DNA from: Erysipelotrichaceae bacterium
GTDB taxonomy: Bacteria; Bacillota_I; Bacilli_A; Erysipelotrichales; Erysipelotrichaceae
Reading direction: 5' to 3'
Assembly: GCA_017533785.1 (NCBI GenBank)
Contig: JAFWII010000004.1
Location: 1-64,000 of the forward strand
DNA length: 64,000 bases
The position numbers were made by a program, and so were the translations under genes. The notes under the pieces are model-generated. The model saw only the letters and a list, made by a program, of their open reading frames with translations. It was not told where the DNA came from and searched no databases. This document shows, one piece after another, positions 1 through 56,353 of the stretch (its first letter is position 1; each line of letters opens with the position of its first letter).

Positions 1-147
1 GAAACCGCAGTCTCAACCTCCCGAAAGTAGATGAACTACAAATGACATATGAGTAAACAATGGTTTCATCTACATTCTAATCAAAGGCTAGAAAGGATTG
101 ATACTTACGCGCAGACAAGGTACGTAATTATCATACAAGGTTCTATT
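1..147. other. Upstream region of the ABC operon with an inverted repeat
   Basis: No gene can be assigned to the first 147 bases. The bases at 27-35 (GTAGATGAA) recur as their reverse complement at 65-73, giving a 9-bp stem with a 29-nt loop just before the ABC operon. This could be the tail of an RNA that begins outside the window, or a leader hairpin. No clear promoter or Rho-independent terminator was found here. Confidence 0.3.
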
Positions 148-870
148 ATGATTTCAATCAAAAACGTCACCAAAAGCTTCACGAAAGATAAAAAGGCAGT
201 TGATGATCTTGACCTGGAAGTTCTAGACGGTGAAATCTTCGGATTTCTTGGCCCGAATGGAGCCGGAAAAACTACTACCCTGCGACTGATTAATGGAATC
301 CTCAGACCTGATAACGGCACTATTGAGATTGACGGGTACGATATCGAAAAAGAGGGTATCAAAGCCAAAGAACAGATTGGCTTTGTTTCTGACAATCCTG
401 ATCAGTTTTTGAATCTAAAAGGCATTGAATACTTGAATTTCATGGCTGACATCTATAGAGTTGAGGACCGTTTTGCAAAAATCGAAAGATTGACAAAACG
501 TTTTGAGATCAATGATGTATTAAATAACGCACTTAATAGCTATTCGCACGGAATGCGACAGAAGGTTATTCTGTGCGGAGCGCTTCTACATGAACCGCAT
601 AATCTGATATTAGACGAACCAATGACCGGGCTGGATCCGAAATCTTCGTTTGATCTTAAAGAAACTATGCGCAATTATGCCGACCAGGGGAAATGCGTAT
701 TCTTTTCAACACATGTACTGGAAGTTGCTGAAAGAATATGTGACCGGGTTGGAATCATTAATAAAGGAAAACTCTATTTTGTCGGAACGATCGATGAGTT
801 AAAAGAAACCGTTCACGAAAACAATTCCCTCGAACAGCTCTTCCTGGAGATTACCGGAAATGAACAGTAA
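148..870 (+). CDS. ABC transporter ATP-binding protein (ABC-2 exporter type)
   Basis: This 240-residue protein should be the ATPase of an ABC exporter and power the permease encoded next to it. It shows Walker A GPNGAGKT (about residues 35-42), a non-standard signature YSHGMRQK (about 131-138), Walker B LILDEP and an STH switch histidine. The SHGM type of signature is common in ABC-2 exporters for drugs, antibiotics or polymers. The ATG at 148 was chosen because AAGG lies 7 nt upstream and the family begins with this MISIKNVTKSF-like stretch; the open frame runs further upstream but without family similarity. The stop overlaps the permease start by 11 nt. The substrate is unknown. Confidence 0.9.
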   Translation: MISIKNVTKSFTKDKKAVDDLDLEVLDGEIFGFLGPNGAGKTTTLRLINGILRPDNGTIEIDGYDIEKEGIKAKEQIGFVSDNPDQFLNLKGIEYLNFMADIYRVEDRFAKIERLTKRFEINDVLNNALNSYSHGMRQKVILCGALLHEPHNLILDEPMTGLDPKSSFDLKETMRNYADQGKCVFFSTHVLEVAERICDRVGIINKGKLYFVGTIDELKETVHENNSLEQLFLEITGNEQ

Positions 871-2506
871 TGTATTTAGTCTAACAGCTGCACTGATAAA
901 AAATAACCTATCGCCATTCGGCAAGAATAGAGGAAAACTTGGAATCAAGATTCTATATGTGATTCTCTTTGCGTATTTATTTGGTTTGGCTGCATATGGT
1001 TCCTATTGGCTTTTAAGCGTTCTGATCCCGTTGAAACAAGAGAAGATATTTATCGGCTTCATTCTTTCTTCAACTGTCGCTTTCGTATTCGTACAGTCGA
1101 TTCTTTCCTGTGCCAGTTTCTTCTATTTTGCTAAAGAAAACGAGTTCCTGCTGCCGCTCCCGCTGAAATCGAAAGAAATACTCGCTGCCAAAACCGCAGT
1201 ATCTTTGATCTATATCTATTTTACAGAGCTATTCATTGGGCTGGTTCCTCTTTTCTGTTATGGATACTTTACTTCGCAACCGCTCTATTTTTATCTGTTG
1301 GTCATTCCGGTTCTTTTAATTCTGCCGATCTTTCCAATATGCATTTCCTCATTCCTTATTATTCTTCTGTTCTCCTTAATTAATTTGACTCGATACAAAT
1401 CCATCTTTCATGTGATCAGTATTCTTTTTGCGATATCTTTTTCTTTAGGGATTTCGCTGTTTGTTAACAGTGGAGATCAATCCTCTGCAATGATGGATCT
1501 TCTCAATAGAGGAGGGGACCTTCTTGAACTTTACAAAGGGTTTTTGCCAACAATATCTTTTGCAATCGATGCGCTTAAATGCTCAGATCTCATCACTTCG
1601 CTTACGAGTTTCACTGTTCTTGTGCTTATTTCTGTATTGGTTTTCGTATTGTATTTGTTTGTATCTGACAAGCTCTTTATGAAAGGTCTTCTTAATTCTC
1701 TGTACGGCACTACGACGATAGTTAAGAAGTCTGTTAATGAAAAATCGTTCAGGAGCAAAGGGATTGCTTTATCTTATATCTCTAAAGAATTCAAAAACCT
1801 TTTAAGAAACAGCGTGTATTTAACGCAGTTAATTCTGCCGGCTCTGCTGGTTCCGTTCATTATCCTTTTTGCTTTTGGATTCTCGCTTCGGAATAATGCG
1901 GATGATATCAGTATTGTTCTGCGAATCGTTGAGCGTTGGTTGTTTTCGGATGAAGCTTCTATATTCGTTGTGATGATCCTTTTCGGATTATTGTTTTTCA
2001 CTTCGATGTATGTTTACATCTCAATAACTGGCATTTCAAGAGATGGCGAGGATGCATTATTCATGAAGCAGATCCCCATACCTTTTTACAAGCAACTGAT
2101 TTATAAGGCAGTCCCAGATTCTCTGTTCACGTTCTTCGGATACGCTGTTATGATCGTGATCATCCTTATCTTTATCAGAGTTCCTGCAAAGTACATTCTG
2201 ATGTCTATAATTGCTGGCATCTTGTATTCTTATATTCACGGTTTGCTTTTCCTGGTAATCGACTTAATGAAGCCAAAACTGCATTGGCAAAATGAATACG
2301 AAGTAGTCAAAAACAATTTTAGTATTTTCTATGTTATTCTTTTTGCGATCATTAATTTCTGCATAATGGCCGCTCTGTATTTGCTGAAGATACACGATTA
2401 CTTATTGTATTATTCTATTATTATTTCGATCTACTTACTGATGTCCGCTGCGTTAACGCTTTATATTAGAAAAAAAGACATCCGTCTGGCGGATCGTCTT
2501 TATTAG
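860..2506 (+). CDS. ABC-2 type transporter permease
   Basis: This 548-residue, very hydrophobic protein has about a dozen likely membrane helices spread over its whole length. It has no nucleotide-binding motif. It starts inside the end of the ATPase gene, with CTGGAGA about 9 nt upstream, so the two are translationally coupled and probably form one exporter. Its size and the 'LLPLPLKSKEI' segment after the second helix resemble large Bacillota ABC-2 permeases, but I cannot name a subfamily or substrate. The stop codon overlaps the end of the convergent gene by 4 nt, leaving no room for a terminator. Confidence 0.85.
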   Translation: MNSNVFSLTAALIKNNLSPFGKNRGKLGIKILYVILFAYLFGLAAYGSYWLLSVLIPLKQEKIFIGFILSSTVAFVFVQSILSCASFFYFAKENEFLLPLPLKSKEILAAKTAVSLIYIYFTELFIGLVPLFCYGYFTSQPLYFYLLVIPVLLILPIFPICISSFLIILLFSLINLTRYKSIFHVISILFAISFSLGISLFVNSGDQSSAMMDLLNRGGDLLELYKGFLPTISFAIDALKCSDLITSLTSFTVLVLISVLVFVLYLFVSDKLFMKGLLNSLYGTTTIVKKSVNEKSFRSKGIALSYISKEFKNLLRNSVYLTQLILPALLVPFIILFAFGFSLRNNADDISIVLRIVERWLFSDEASIFVVMILFGLLFFTSMYVYISITGISRDGEDALFMKQIPIPFYKQLIYKAVPDSLFTFFGYAVMIVIILIFIRVPAKYILMSIIAGILYSYIHGLLFLVIDLMKPKLHWQNEYEVVKNNFSIFYVILFAIINFCIMAALYLLKIHDYLLYYSIIISIYLLMSAALTLYIRKKDIRLADRLY

Positions 2507-3108
2507 AGAACTGGCTGACTGTCGTTAATATCTGTCAAACAAACCTTTATTGTCGCGTCGACCGGGATGCCTTCAAGCTTTGCGTCTGCAGTTAGTACGA
2601 CATGTTCGAACGCAGTTTCATTTAATTCAAAACGGAGATTGTGAACAACGATCTCTTTTAAGTATTTATCAATCAGAGAAACATTAAACCCGATTTGTTT
2701 CATTAAGTCGTAAGTCGCATCATCTTTCAAGGATAATACAATTACGCCGTTTTCATCCTCTGAGAGATCATTATAATGCGATCCTAAAAACTCCTGAACA
2801 CCTTCTATTATTGATTCAACGTCAATTGCGTTGCCTGTAAACGATTCTTCTTTTCCGTTAAGGCCAGCCGAGACAATCCCGTCTTTGTTGCTGTAAAAGC
2901 CTTTAAAAGAATAATTCATCAACGATATTTCTCCGTTTAAATCGACCTCGCTCTGTTCCCTTAGGATAATTATTCTCCCGGTAAGCGGAACTTTCAAAAC
3001 ACCCTTAAGAGTAGAAACATCTCCAGCGGCAGATAAGGTAAATGATGAAAAGCTCTTCAGTTTCCGGATTGCATTTTGGATTTTTATGAATAACGGTATT
3101 TCGCTCAT
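2503..3108 (-). CDS. Unrecognised protein, 201 residues
   Basis: I do not recognise this protein. It is soluble-looking, acidic, without signal peptide or membrane segment, and rich in alternating hydrophobic and polar residues, as expected for a beta-rich fold. One stretch reads LKGVLKVPLTGRIIIL and a later one GIPVDATIKVCLTDI, which suggests repeated beta strands. A TTG at 3144 would extend it by 12 codons, but the ATG at 3108 is preferred because a TATGAT hexamer (3120-3115) ends 6 nt before it, the same leaderless geometry seen elsewhere here. No Shine-Dalgarno is present at either start. It is divergent from hflX and convergent with the permease. Confidence 0.7.
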   Translation of the reverse strand: MSEIPLFIKIQNAIRKLKSFSSFTLSAAGDVSTLKGVLKVPLTGRIIILREQSEVDLNGEISLMNYSFKGFYSNKDGIVSAGLNGKEESFTGNAIDVESIIEGVQEFLGSHYNDLSEDENGVIVLSLKDDATYDLMKQIGFNVSLIDKYLKEIVVHNLRFELNETAFEHVVLTADAKLEGIPVDATIKVCLTDINDSQPVL

Positions 3109-3114
3109 AGAGAT

Positions 3115-3120
3115 ATCATA
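3115..3120 (-). promoter_or_regulatory. -10 hexamer of a leaderless promoter
   Basis: TATGAT on the minus strand ends 6 nt before the ATG at 3108, so transcription should begin at or next to the start codon. The spacing matches more than ten other genes in this window. Confidence 0.55.
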
Positions 3121-3166
3121 TCTTAACTGACTTGCGAAAATCAAAGAATCTTGATTACATTAAACT

Positions 3167-4384
3167 ATGAAGAAAACCATATTGGCTTCTATTGTTGATC
3201 CGCAGAACGAAGAAAATAGTTTTTACGATGAAGAATGCCGAAGTCTATGTGAACAGGCTGGTTATGAAATAATCGTCTCGACGTCTCAAAGCTTAAAAAA
3301 ACCATATCCAAGGTTTGCGTTCGGAAAAGGAAAAATCGAAACAATTAAAATCTTGATTGATGAAACCGAAGCGGAAGCAGTCGTTATTAACAATTATCTT
3401 CATTACGACGTGTTACAGAACCTTTCAAATGAATTCGGAATTGAAGTGATTGACCGTTTTCAGTTGATTTTAAATATCTTTCAGCTTCATGCATCTTCAA
3501 AAGAAGCAAAGCTTCAGATCGAGATTGCTTCTCTACGTTATATGAGTGGCTACAGAGATGAAGCACACGCTAGCGATGACCAGCAAGGCGGAACGCTTCA
3601 TAACCGAGGCAGCGGAGAGAGCTATTCAAGCTTGTACCGCAAAAGAAATCGAAGAAAGATCGAACTTCTTGAAAAAGAACTGTCGGAACTCAAGAAACGC
3701 AAAGAAATCAATTATCGCAAACGAAGGGATTCTCTTATCAAAAAAGTTGCACTCGTTGGCTATACCAATGTAGGTAAATCATCTCTTTTGAACGCCATGG
3801 TTGAACGTGAAGAAAAGAAAGTACTCGCAGAAAACCGATTGTTTGCAACGCTTGACACGGGAACGAGATATATTTCTTATCGGCATTACGGATTTATTCT
3901 ATCCGATAGTGTTGGTTTTGTGAGCGATCTGCCGCATACTCTTATTCAATCTTTTCGTTCAACTCTCGATGTGATCAACGAGGCGGATCTGCTCATACAT
4001 GTAATCGATGTTTCAAATGCAAATTATCGGTTGCAAAAGGAAGTAACAGAAAACACGTTAAAAGAGATCCACGCAGATCAGATTCAGCGAATGGATCTCT
4101 ATCATAAATGCGACCTGACAATAGACGACGGAGAAGAACATGAACACTCTTCTTCGATCTATATAAAAGAATCGATTGATAAACTGATGAACGATATAGT
4201 CTGCACTCTGTATCCATTTGAAACGAAGTGCGAACTGAGCGTTCCCTATAGCAATCTTAACCAGCTTCAGCCTTTCTATGAAGTTTGTTCGATTTCAGAA
4301 ATTGAACGTAACGAAACCGGTGTAGTTATTGAGGCAGAAGGAGAAAGACACATAATCGAACGATTAACGAAGTTGTTTGAATAG
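3167..4384 (+). CDS. hflX: Ribosome-associated GTPase HflX
   Basis: HflX is a ribosome-binding GTPase that splits stalled or hibernating ribosomes. The 405-residue protein has the HflX N-terminal domain (RFAFGKGKIETIK, about residues 47-59, and VIDRFQLILNIFQLHA), a basic linker helix, then the G domain with G1 GYTNVGKSS (about 198-206), G3 DSVGF (about 247-251) and a variant G4, HKCD, instead of NKxD. A short C-terminal domain follows. There is no Shine-Dalgarno before the ATG; a weak extended element, TGATTACAT, ends 6 nt upstream. The 3' end overlaps the convergent sirtuin gene by 21 nt. Confidence 0.93.
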   Translation: MKKTILASIVDPQNEENSFYDEECRSLCEQAGYEIIVSTSQSLKKPYPRFAFGKGKIETIKILIDETEAEAVVINNYLHYDVLQNLSNEFGIEVIDRFQLILNIFQLHASSKEAKLQIEIASLRYMSGYRDEAHASDDQQGGTLHNRGSGESYSSLYRKRNRRKIELLEKELSELKKRKEINYRKRRDSLIKKVALVGYTNVGKSSLLNAMVEREEKKVLAENRLFATLDTGTRYISYRHYGFILSDSVGFVSDLPHTLIQSFRSTLDVINEADLLIHVIDVSNANYRLQKEVTENTLKEIHADQIQRMDLYHKCDLTIDDGEEHEHSSSIYIKESIDKLMNDIVCTLYPFETKCELSVPYSNLNQLQPFYEVCSISEIERNETGVVIEAEGERHIIERLTKLFE

Positions 4385-5080
4385 TTCGGCAAGCGATGCT
4401 TTGATGCATAATCTTGCACGATAATCATATGGTGTGGGATCACGATTAATGATCACAAGGTTTTTCCCTCGATAATACTGAATGAATCCGGCTGCTGGAT
4501 ATACAACCAGAGAAGTGCCGCAAACGATTAGCGTGTCTGCTTCTTCTATGCAGTTGATGGCATTTTCGATATCTTCTGAATTCAATGCCTCTTCATAAAG
4601 AACAACGTCCGGTTTTATAAGACCTCCGCATTCACAATGCGGAATCTTTTCGCTAAAGAGCATTTCTTTTAATTCTTTATACGAGCTTTTCTTTCCGCAT
4701 TTGAGGCAGTGGTATGAAGAAATGCTTCCATGAACTTCGATAACCTCTGTGCTTCCGGCTTTCTGATGCAGTCCATCAATGTTCTGCGTTACAACCGTCA
4801 CGTTTTTTCTCTTTTCCAAATCTGCTATATAACGGTGAGCGGCATTCGGTTCGACATCCATCAATTGAAGCTGGGTACGATAGAAATCGTAAAAATCTGC
4901 TGTATTATCGACGAAATAATGGTGCGAAAGTATCTCCTCGGCATTCTTGTTAACGTTATACAGCCCGTCCTTCGAGCGGAAATCCGGTATTCCGCTTTCA
5001 GTTGAAATTCCTGCGCCTGTGAAGAAAACAATATTATTGCTTTCATCGATCATTTTTTGTAAGTCTTCGATTCTGTTCAT
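4364..5080 (-). CDS. cobB: NAD-dependent protein deacylase (sirtuin)
   Basis: Sirtuins remove acetyl or other acyl groups from lysine side chains using NAD. The 238-residue protein shows the Rossmann NAD motif GAGISTESGIPDFRS (about 22-36), TQNIDGLH (about 98-105), the catalytic histidine in EVHGS, and a four-cysteine zinc site arranged CLKC...CEC. GTSL and NRD near the C terminus complete the NAD pocket. The length is typical of bacterial single-domain sirtuins. The gene is divergent from a chorismate mutase gene with only 33 bp between start codons. A TATAAT (5092-5087) lies 6 nt before the ATG and no Shine-Dalgarno is present, which suggests a leaderless transcript. Confidence 0.93.
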   Translation of the reverse strand: MNRIEDLQKMIDESNNIVFFTGAGISTESGIPDFRSKDGLYNVNKNAEEILSHHYFVDNTADFYDFYRTQLQLMDVEPNAAHRYIADLEKRKNVTVVTQNIDGLHQKAGSTEVIEVHGSISSYHCLKCGKKSSYKELKEMLFSEKIPHCECGGLIKPDVVLYEEALNSEDIENAINCIEEADTLIVCGTSLVVYPAAGFIQYYRGKNLVIINRDPTPYDYRARLCIKASLAELFKQLR

Positions 5081-5086
5081 ATTTTA

Positions 5087-5092
5087 ATTATA
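5087..5092 (-). promoter_or_regulatory. -10 hexamer of the sirtuin gene (leaderless)
   Basis: A perfect TATAAT on the minus strand is separated from the ATG at 5080 by 6 nt. It is only 9 bp from the oppositely oriented -10 of the chorismate mutase gene. Confidence 0.6.
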
Positions 5093-5098
5093 AGCTTA

Positions 5099-5107
5099 TG
5101 CTATGAT
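5099..5107 (+). promoter_or_regulatory. Extended -10 of the chorismate mutase gene (leaderless)
   Basis: TG-C-TATGAT is an extended -10 element whose last base is 6 nt before the ATG at 5114. A -35 box with normal spacing would fall on the sirtuin start codon, and nothing there resembles TTGACA. Confidence 0.6.
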
Positions 5108-5113
5108 ATTTTT

Positions 5114-5383
5114 ATGAAAACCTTGGAAATGTGCCGTTTAGAATTGAACGAAATAGACAATCGGCTAAAAGAATTATTCCTTAGAAGAATGGAAGTAATC
5201 GGTGATGTTTCTGCCTACAAAAAAGCAAATGGAATCGCCATTTACGATCCGGAGCGTGAACGCGCGATGAAAGACCGCCTCAGTTCAGATCTCCAGGAAC
5301 CGATGAAAACCCTATATTTGGAGTTTCTTGATTCGATTCTGAATGCTTCTAAAGAACTTCAGTCTGATTTGAGGGAAAAATGA
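5114..5383 (+). CDS. Chorismate mutase, AroQ type
   Basis: Chorismate mutase converts chorismate to prephenate on the way to phenylalanine and tyrosine. This 89-residue, all-helical protein matches the monofunctional AroQ class: an N-terminal helix with the family spacing LNEIDNRLKELFLRRM, then VSAYKKANGIAIYDPERE carrying the usual active-site lysine, aspartate, arginine and glutamate, and a C-terminal helix. No other aromatic-pathway gene is adjacent. It shares an ATGA overlap with the downstream RNA methyltransferase, so the two are coupled. The start sits directly after an extended -10, without a Shine-Dalgarno. Confidence 0.9.
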   Translation: MKTLEMCRLELNEIDNRLKELFLRRMEVIGDVSAYKKANGIAIYDPERERAMKDRLSSDLQEPMKTLYLEFLDSILNASKELQSDLREK

Positions 5384-6675
5384 TATTGGATATTAAAAAA
5401 CTGGGCATAAATGGGGAAGGCATTGCTTATGATCGGAAGATCCCAGTTTTTTTGTCTGGCTGTCTTCCCGGGGAAACGGTGGATGCCGTGATCACGGAAG
5501 ACCATGGAAACTATAAATTCGCTGAAGTGAAGAGAATACTGAAGAAAAGTCCTTCAAGGATCGATCCGGAATGCAGGTATTTCAATATATGCGACGGATG
5601 TCCCTTAATGATTCTCAGCTACAAGGATCAAATCAAAGAGAAGAAAAACCTTGTATTCGAAAGCATCCGTAAATATGCCGGTATCGAACTCCGGGATCTG
5701 ACTATTATAGAGAATTCAGCTCCGTTCGGATATCGCAACAGTTGCAAGGTTCCTTTTGGACTTGAAAAGGGGAAAATGATAATCGGAATGTATAGATCGA
5801 GGTCTAATGAACTGGTTCCGATTCAAAACTGTGTTATTCAGGAAAAAGATCTAAACATCCGAATCAAATCCGTTCTCTCAGTACTTAATAAGTATCATCT
5901 CAAGCCGTATAACAAAAAGTCAAAAGAAGGATTAAGATATCTCTTTTTAAGAGTATTCAATGATCAGTGGCAGTGTTGTCTGATTAAAGGGAATGAAGAA
6001 TTGCCTTCAAATCTCATTAGCGAAATGCTGGAGTTGGAAGGTCTGCAGGTATTTGCATCTTCCACAAACACCGATCCGAAAAGCCGTGAATTATTTGGAA
6101 ATAATATGAGGTATTTCACAAAACAGAAAGAACTGATATTTGACTGGCATGGTTATAGTCTCAGGCTTTCTCCCAGAGCTTTCTTTCAGCTGAATACAGA
6201 GCAGAGTTTCAAGCTATATGAAAAAGCGGTATCAATGATCAGCGAGAAAAAACGGCATATTATGGAGGCTTATTGCGGTATAGGTGTTATCTCATTGATG
6301 GCAAGCAAAAAGGCAGAGAAGATCACGGCATTTGAAATCAATGAAGACACTGTCAAAAACGCTAAGCGGATCGCTGCGAAAAACTTCATCACTAACATCC
6401 GTTTTGTGTGCTCGGATGCCGGTGCAATGCTGGCAAAAAACAATGATTGTGATCTGCTTATAGTTGATCCTCCGAGGTCAGGCATGGATGAGAATATGAT
6501 CGCTGCCATAGAAAAATCGAGAATACCGGAAATCATATACATATCCTGCAGTCATATCAGTTTTGCAAAGAACTTAAGGTCTCTTAAGCATTATCAGCTA
6601 ACTGAAATAGCGGCGGTTGATATGTTCTCTAACACTCCATTGATTGAAATCGTCGCCAAGCTGAAGCGTGTATAA
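5380..6675 (+). CDS. RNA (uracil-C5) methyltransferase, RlmD/TrmA family
   Basis: This 431-residue protein should methylate C5 of a uridine in rRNA or tRNA using S-adenosylmethionine. It has a TRAM-like RNA-binding N terminus (about 1-55), an iron-sulfur motif C-x5-C-x2-C (CRYFNICDGC, about 63-72) with a further cysteine at QNC, and a class I methyltransferase domain with EAYCGIGVISL (about 296-306) and DPPRSGMD. The catalytic-cysteine motif reads SCSHISF where many members have SCNP. The protein could act on 23S rRNA U1939, U747 or tRNA U54; sequence alone does not decide. Confidence 0.88.
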   Translation: MILDIKKLGINGEGIAYDRKIPVFLSGCLPGETVDAVITEDHGNYKFAEVKRILKKSPSRIDPECRYFNICDGCPLMILSYKDQIKEKKNLVFESIRKYAGIELRDLTIIENSAPFGYRNSCKVPFGLEKGKMIIGMYRSRSNELVPIQNCVIQEKDLNIRIKSVLSVLNKYHLKPYNKKSKEGLRYLFLRVFNDQWQCCLIKGNEELPSNLISEMLELEGLQVFASSTNTDPKSRELFGNNMRYFTKQKELIFDWHGYSLRLSPRAFFQLNTEQSFKLYEKAVSMISEKKRHIMEAYCGIGVISLMASKKAEKITAFEINEDTVKNAKRIAAKNFITNIRFVCSDAGAMLAKNNDCDLLIVDPPRSGMDENMIAAIEKSRIPEIIYISCSHISFAKNLRSLKHYQLTEIAAVDMFSNTPLIEIVAKLKRV

Positions 6676-26975: not shown

Positions 26976-26984
26976 ATTATAGCA
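26976..26984 (-). promoter_or_regulatory. Extended -10 of the DUF5662 gene (leaderless)
   Basis: TG-C-TATAAT on the minus strand ends 7 nt before the ATG at 26968. It lies back to back with the nusB promoter. Confidence 0.6.
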
Positions 26985-27002
26985 CTTCAATTCTTTGGAA
27001 TA

Positions 27003-27011
27003 TGCTAGAAT
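27003..27011 (+). promoter_or_regulatory. Extended -10 of the nusB operon (leaderless)
   Basis: TG-C-TAGAAT ends 6 nt before the nusB ATG at 27018. It is the only promoter seen before a seven-gene operon of 7.1 kb. Confidence 0.6.
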
Positions 27012-56297: not shown

Positions 56298-56306
56298 ATT
56301 GTATCA
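56298..56306 (-). promoter_or_regulatory. Extended -10 of the rdgB operon (leaderless)
   Basis: TG-A-TACAAT on the minus strand ends 7 nt before the ATG at 56290. Confidence 0.55.
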
Positions 56307-56347
56307 CAATCGCTGTCGGTTCTTAACTTTTGGCAGGCGATATCCTA

Positions 56348-56353
56348 TATAAT
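56348..56353 (+). promoter_or_regulatory. -10 hexamer of the lipid kinase gene (leaderless)
   Basis: TATAAT ends 6 nt before the ATG at 56360. TTAACT 19 bp upstream is a poor -35 candidate. Confidence 0.55.

Follow-up and report, generated by a model that had tools for sequence, protein, structure and literature searches.

The 33 bp that separate a sirtuin gene from a divergent chorismate mutase gene in an Erysipelotrichaceae bacterium probably contain two full sigma-A promoters in a back-to-back arrangement, both of which give rise to leaderless mRNAs. The shortness of the gap would result from the frequent use of leaderless starts in this genus, and at low firing rates the two genes are probably expressed independently of each other. 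The gap occupies positions 5081-5113 of the window, the 64,000-nucleotide stretch of DNA that was analyzed.

Layout of the divergent gap

The gene on the minus strand (4364..5080, ATG start) encodes a SIR2-family NAD-dependent deacylase (sirtuin) of 238 aa (Pfam PF02146, E=7.4e-54). On the plus strand, a type II chorismate mutase (CM_2) of 89 aa is encoded at 5114..5383 (PF01817, E=1.4e-16) and overlaps by 4 nt with the next gene, an RNA uracil-5-methyltransferase (5380-6675, PF05958). The intergenic stretch contains 15% G+C (85% A+T). Two outward-facing -10 elements are found in it: the hexamer TATAAT on the minus strand (5092-5087), 6 nt from the sirtuin ATG, and an extended -10, TGcTATGAT, on the plus strand (5099..5107; hexamer TATGAT at 5102-5107), likewise 6 nt from the chorismate mutase ATG. 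Nine base pairs (5093-5101) lie between the hexamers. This arrangement had been described in an earlier sequence-only reading and is confirmed in every position. At spacers of 15-19, neither promoter has a -35 better than 3/6, which is why a promoter scan returned neither of them, and inspection of the upstream sequences revealed no Shine-Dalgarno site in front of either gene.

With a -10 element that ends 6 nt before the ATG, transcription should begin close to the A of the start codon, and both mRNAs are thus predicted to be leaderless, with transcription starts deduced from the -10 spacing at 5080 on the minus strand and 5114 on the plus strand (compare PMC3160421). Zheng et al. (2011; PMC3160421) gave as the hallmark of leaderless genes in bacteria a TATAAT-type signal located some 12 bp ahead of the start codon. 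In the present gap, a TANNNT motif begins at this distance from both start codons, the first T of the sirtuin hexamer (5092) being 12 bp from 5080 and that of the chorismate mutase hexamer (5102) 12 bp from 5114, both genes lack a Shine-Dalgarno site, and the signal has a positional peak in the genome. Judged by sequence, the gap has the features of leaderless (TA-led) genes. Each promoter would consist of a near-consensus -10, extended by TGc in the case of chorismate mutase, without a recognisable -35. The RNA of each gene would begin at the A of the ATG and would be translated by start-codon-first initiation. With leaderless starts as frequent as they are in this genus, each gene would need no more than some 12-15 bp in front of its start codon, and the compact gap would be a consequence of two such starts, not of a special promoter design.

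A spacing peak across the genus

The 6-nt spacing recurs throughout the genome. When hexamers matching the -10 in five of six positions were counted before 193 first genes (397 kb of this genome), a peak of 18 genes appeared at spacer 6, compared with about 2 per position elsewhere. Genes were called by a simple longest-ORF method, and those that run off the stretch, lie near its edge or have no upstream neighbour were left out of the counts. Across the entire genome, TATAAT-N6-ATG occurs 62 times and TATAAT-N15-ATG 12 times (p=3e-9); the corresponding counts in three congeners are 51/8, 65/6 and 47/6. The second spacing was used as a control, because a reversed pattern was judged to be weaker.

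The four genomes of the genus have the four highest N6/N15 ratios among 140 genomes of the family. The ratio is at least 3 in 14 of the 140 and below 1.3 in 74, a number that includes two 2.3-Mb genomes (G019 and G057) with zero counts for every pattern and control, whose sequences are either very rich in G+C or only partly readable. Outside the family, 181 genomes of the class show a median ratio of 1.02 and nearly equal totals (9802 for N6 and 9832 for N15). Four of these reach a ratio of at least 3, all from family f8 and with few matches each (G275, 18/0; G307, 18/2; G320, 28/5; G194, 11/3). A high ratio is therefore not unique to the genus of the window. A family member taken as a negative control (G022) has no peak, with 4 genes at spacer 6 and 144 N6 versus 153 N15 matches, and a comparison with 28 first genes of E. 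coli is too small to weigh.

Leaderless starts are a minority even in this genome, where 31 of the 193 first genes received a leaderless call versus 87 with a Shine-Dalgarno match. In the congener G002 the peak at the gene level is weaker (6 of 147 first genes at spacer 6, compared with roughly 1.7 at each other position), and the sum over spacers 5-8 is 9 versus 6.7 expected.

Conservation in relatives

The -10 of the sirtuin gene is found at spacer 6 in all five loci in which the start is in view, and these loci belong to two genera (hexamers TATAAT, TATAAT, TATCAT, TAAGAT and TATAAT). The congener G002, whose locus matches that of an Erysipelotrichaceae MAG from sheep duodenum (L003), retains the divergent sirtuin/chorismate mutase pair with the elements TATAAT and TGtTAGAAT, 8 bp apart. 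The conservation of both hexamers in relatives, proposed earlier as a check, is thus borne out in G002, the only congener in which the pair is present. Initiation at chorismate mutase is leaderless-type here and proceeds from a Shine-Dalgarno leader in G002; its leaderless start is not conserved, which counts against the leaderless model. Neither sirtuin nor chorismate mutase was found in the remaining two congeners, which are 82-85% complete.

In the sister genus g45, a gene for an EamA transporter, assigned by a Pfam run on the L104 protein only, is located between sirtuin and chorismate mutase in all three loci that contain both (L103, L104 and L107). It is this transporter gene that is the divergent neighbour of sirtuin there, which leaves the proposed link between NAD-dependent deacylation and aromatic amino acid synthesis unsupported, and a functional relationship of the two enzymes was rejected as an explanation. 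In a further locus of g45 (L105), a similar transporter adjoins chorismate mutase and no sirtuin is present within 1.5 kb. The EamA gene of L104 (645-1517) overlaps the start of chorismate mutase (1498-1755) by 20 nt, which suggests translational coupling. The genus of the window has no EamA gene between the two.

Competition between the two promoters

The -35 region of each promoter would overlie the start of the other gene, and from this geometry alone two polymerases are expected to be unable to occupy both -10 elements together. The sequence-only reading had held that one polymerase covers both promoters and that the genes may exclude each other. Overlapping divergent promoters and an exclusion expected from their geometry remain of this claim; a strong exclusion at basal level does not, by analogy with E. 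coli. Five bidirectional promoters tested in that organism were reported to be so weak in the basal state, and to fire so rarely, that they do not compete; competition emerges once one direction is strongly activated (Warman et al., 2026; PMC12825309). By analogy, sirtuin and chorismate mutase are expected to be expressed mostly independently while both promoters fire at an ordinary low rate, and exclusion would become relevant only upon strong activation of one of them.

It is accordingly improbable that the gap acts as a regulatory switch, as first proposed, in which the promoters compete for polymerase and the expression of sirtuin and chorismate mutase alternates. Such a switch would suit the 9 bp between the hexamers, the two-hexamer layout kept at 8 bp in the congener and the steric exclusion described at bidirectional promoters (PMC12825309), but the weakness of the five E. 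coli promoters, the lack of a known activator site and the absence of the sirtuin/chorismate mutase pairing from the sister genus speak against it. Pairs in which both genes are leaderless are, moreover, not clearly in excess. Among 52 divergent pairs in this genome, 4 have two leaderless genes (2.5 expected), 15 have one and 33 none, counts that depend on an automatic call which includes some overlapping ORFs with doubtful starts and misses a weak hexamer (4/6) before HflX; in G002 the number is 2 of 48 versus 0.5 expected. These figures do not show selection for pairing, and a pair designed as a switch finds no support in them. A general enrichment of leaderless calls in divergent genes was also considered and dropped as a rule, the calls being 23/104 for divergent versus 8/89 for co-directional first genes in this genome (nominal p=0.018) and 10/96 versus 5/51 in G002 (p=1). 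We regard it as no less doubtful that the frequent leaderless starts of the genus have shrunk many divergent genes to one-polymerase-wide nodes, a class of pairs that would be coupled by polymerase exclusion alone, without a regulator or untranslated leader RNA.

The bidirectional promoters studied by Warman, Grainger and colleagues (PMC12825309, PMC10268837) resemble the present gap in that their divergent -10 elements are barred from simultaneous occupancy by two polymerases. They differ from it in that their starts lie 7-25 bp apart and they have a single common -10 element or reciprocally overlapping ones, whereas two separate hexamers are found here and the distance between the predicted starts (5080 and 5114) is 34 bp. 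A single element of the published kind could be TATGATA (5102..5108), a near-symmetric -10 that reads TATCAT on the minus strand (5108-5103) and might drive both strands from starts at 5114 and about 5096, TATAAT being secondary. These starts would be 18 bp apart, the distance most often reported (PMC10268837); position -7 on either strand falls on position -11 of the other, and each RNA would begin with an A. This arrangement seems quite unlikely all the same, since the TATNATA symmetry is missing from the congener (TAGAATG), the sirtuin -10 is kept at spacer 6 across two genera and a transcript begun at 5096 on the minus strand would have a 16-nt leader lacking a Shine-Dalgarno site. An additional sirtuin start near 5096, with its 16-nt leader, would nevertheless count against the leaderless model.

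Taken singly, the hexamer pair is only moderately surprising: when the 33 bp were shuffled 200,000 times, 5-of-6 hexamers occurred on both sides at spacer 6 in 0.08% of the trials, and 1.4% of the trials had them on both sides at spacers 5-8. The pair is judged to be real because of the genome-wide spacing peak and the conservation, not because of such single-pair statistics. That the hexamers arose by chance and the true promoters lie elsewhere, a reading to which the high A+T content, the 1.4% of matching shuffles and the silent promoter scan lend something, is very improbable in view of a spacer-6 peak that is absent in controls and an exact spacing conserved in five sirtuin loci.

Relation to known leaderless genes

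As two back-to-back leaderless promoters, the gap is probably a further instance of a known leaderless kind, with a style of start that is common in the genus. The leaderless signal was reported in 56 of 209 Firmicutes genomes, with a mean of 4.2% of genes (PMC3160421). The present genes share with the TA-led genes of that survey a TATAAT-type signal with its first T some 12 bp ahead of the start codon, and a TG peak was noted there in several low-GC genomes. Unlike the Firmicutes cases given there, which are mainly Lactobacillales and Mycoplasma, the strongest peak found here belongs to one genus of Erysipelotrichaceae. The string 'Erysipelo' does not occur in the main text of that survey, and among the matches listed no title or abstract opening was concerned with leaderless genes in Erysipelotrichaceae, which is not proof of absence. 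The gap is thus a clear example of leaderless initiation, as predicted from sequence, in a gut Bacillota group that the main text of the survey does not highlight.

Other divergent pairs in the window

Three other divergent pairs in the window (3108/3167, 26968/27018 and 56290/56360) had been credited with the same compact layout. The pairs and their start codons exist, but they are looser, with hexamers 35, 24 and 44 bp apart. A spacing of about 6 nt, as the signature of leaderless mRNAs, would account for the compactness of all four pairs, an implication that the sequence-only reading had missed.

The second pair (3115..3161), which is of the leaderless type, has TATGAT on the minus strand (3120-3115; spacer 6 to 3108) and, on the plus strand, the weak TACATT (3156-3161; spacer 5 to 3167) of HflX. 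In the third pair (26976..27011), the minus-strand DUF5662 gene is preceded by TGC-TATAAT (spacer 7 to 26968) and the plus-strand NusB gene by TGC-TAGAAT (spacer 6 to 27018). Its leaderless layout is kept in all three genomes that have both genes, with a GTG start for DUF5662 in G002. The fourth pair (56298..56353) combines a Ham1-like gene on the minus strand (TACAAT, spacer 7 to 56290) with a YegS/DAGK-like kinase on the plus strand (TATAAT, spacer 6 to 56360). Here the leaderless layout is present in three of four genomes, and G002 has Shine-Dalgarno leaders. Matched orthologues with an apparently leaderless start in one species and an apparent Shine-Dalgarno leader in its congener, namely chorismate mutase and the Ham1/kinase pair, would be useful for studies of switching between initiation modes.

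Between the Ham1-like and kinase promoters lies the sequence GGTTCTTAACTTTTGG (56304-56347), which is identical in this genome (G000) and in two congeners (G001 and G003) and altered in G002. It may serve as the site of a regulator or as a -35 region common to both promoters.
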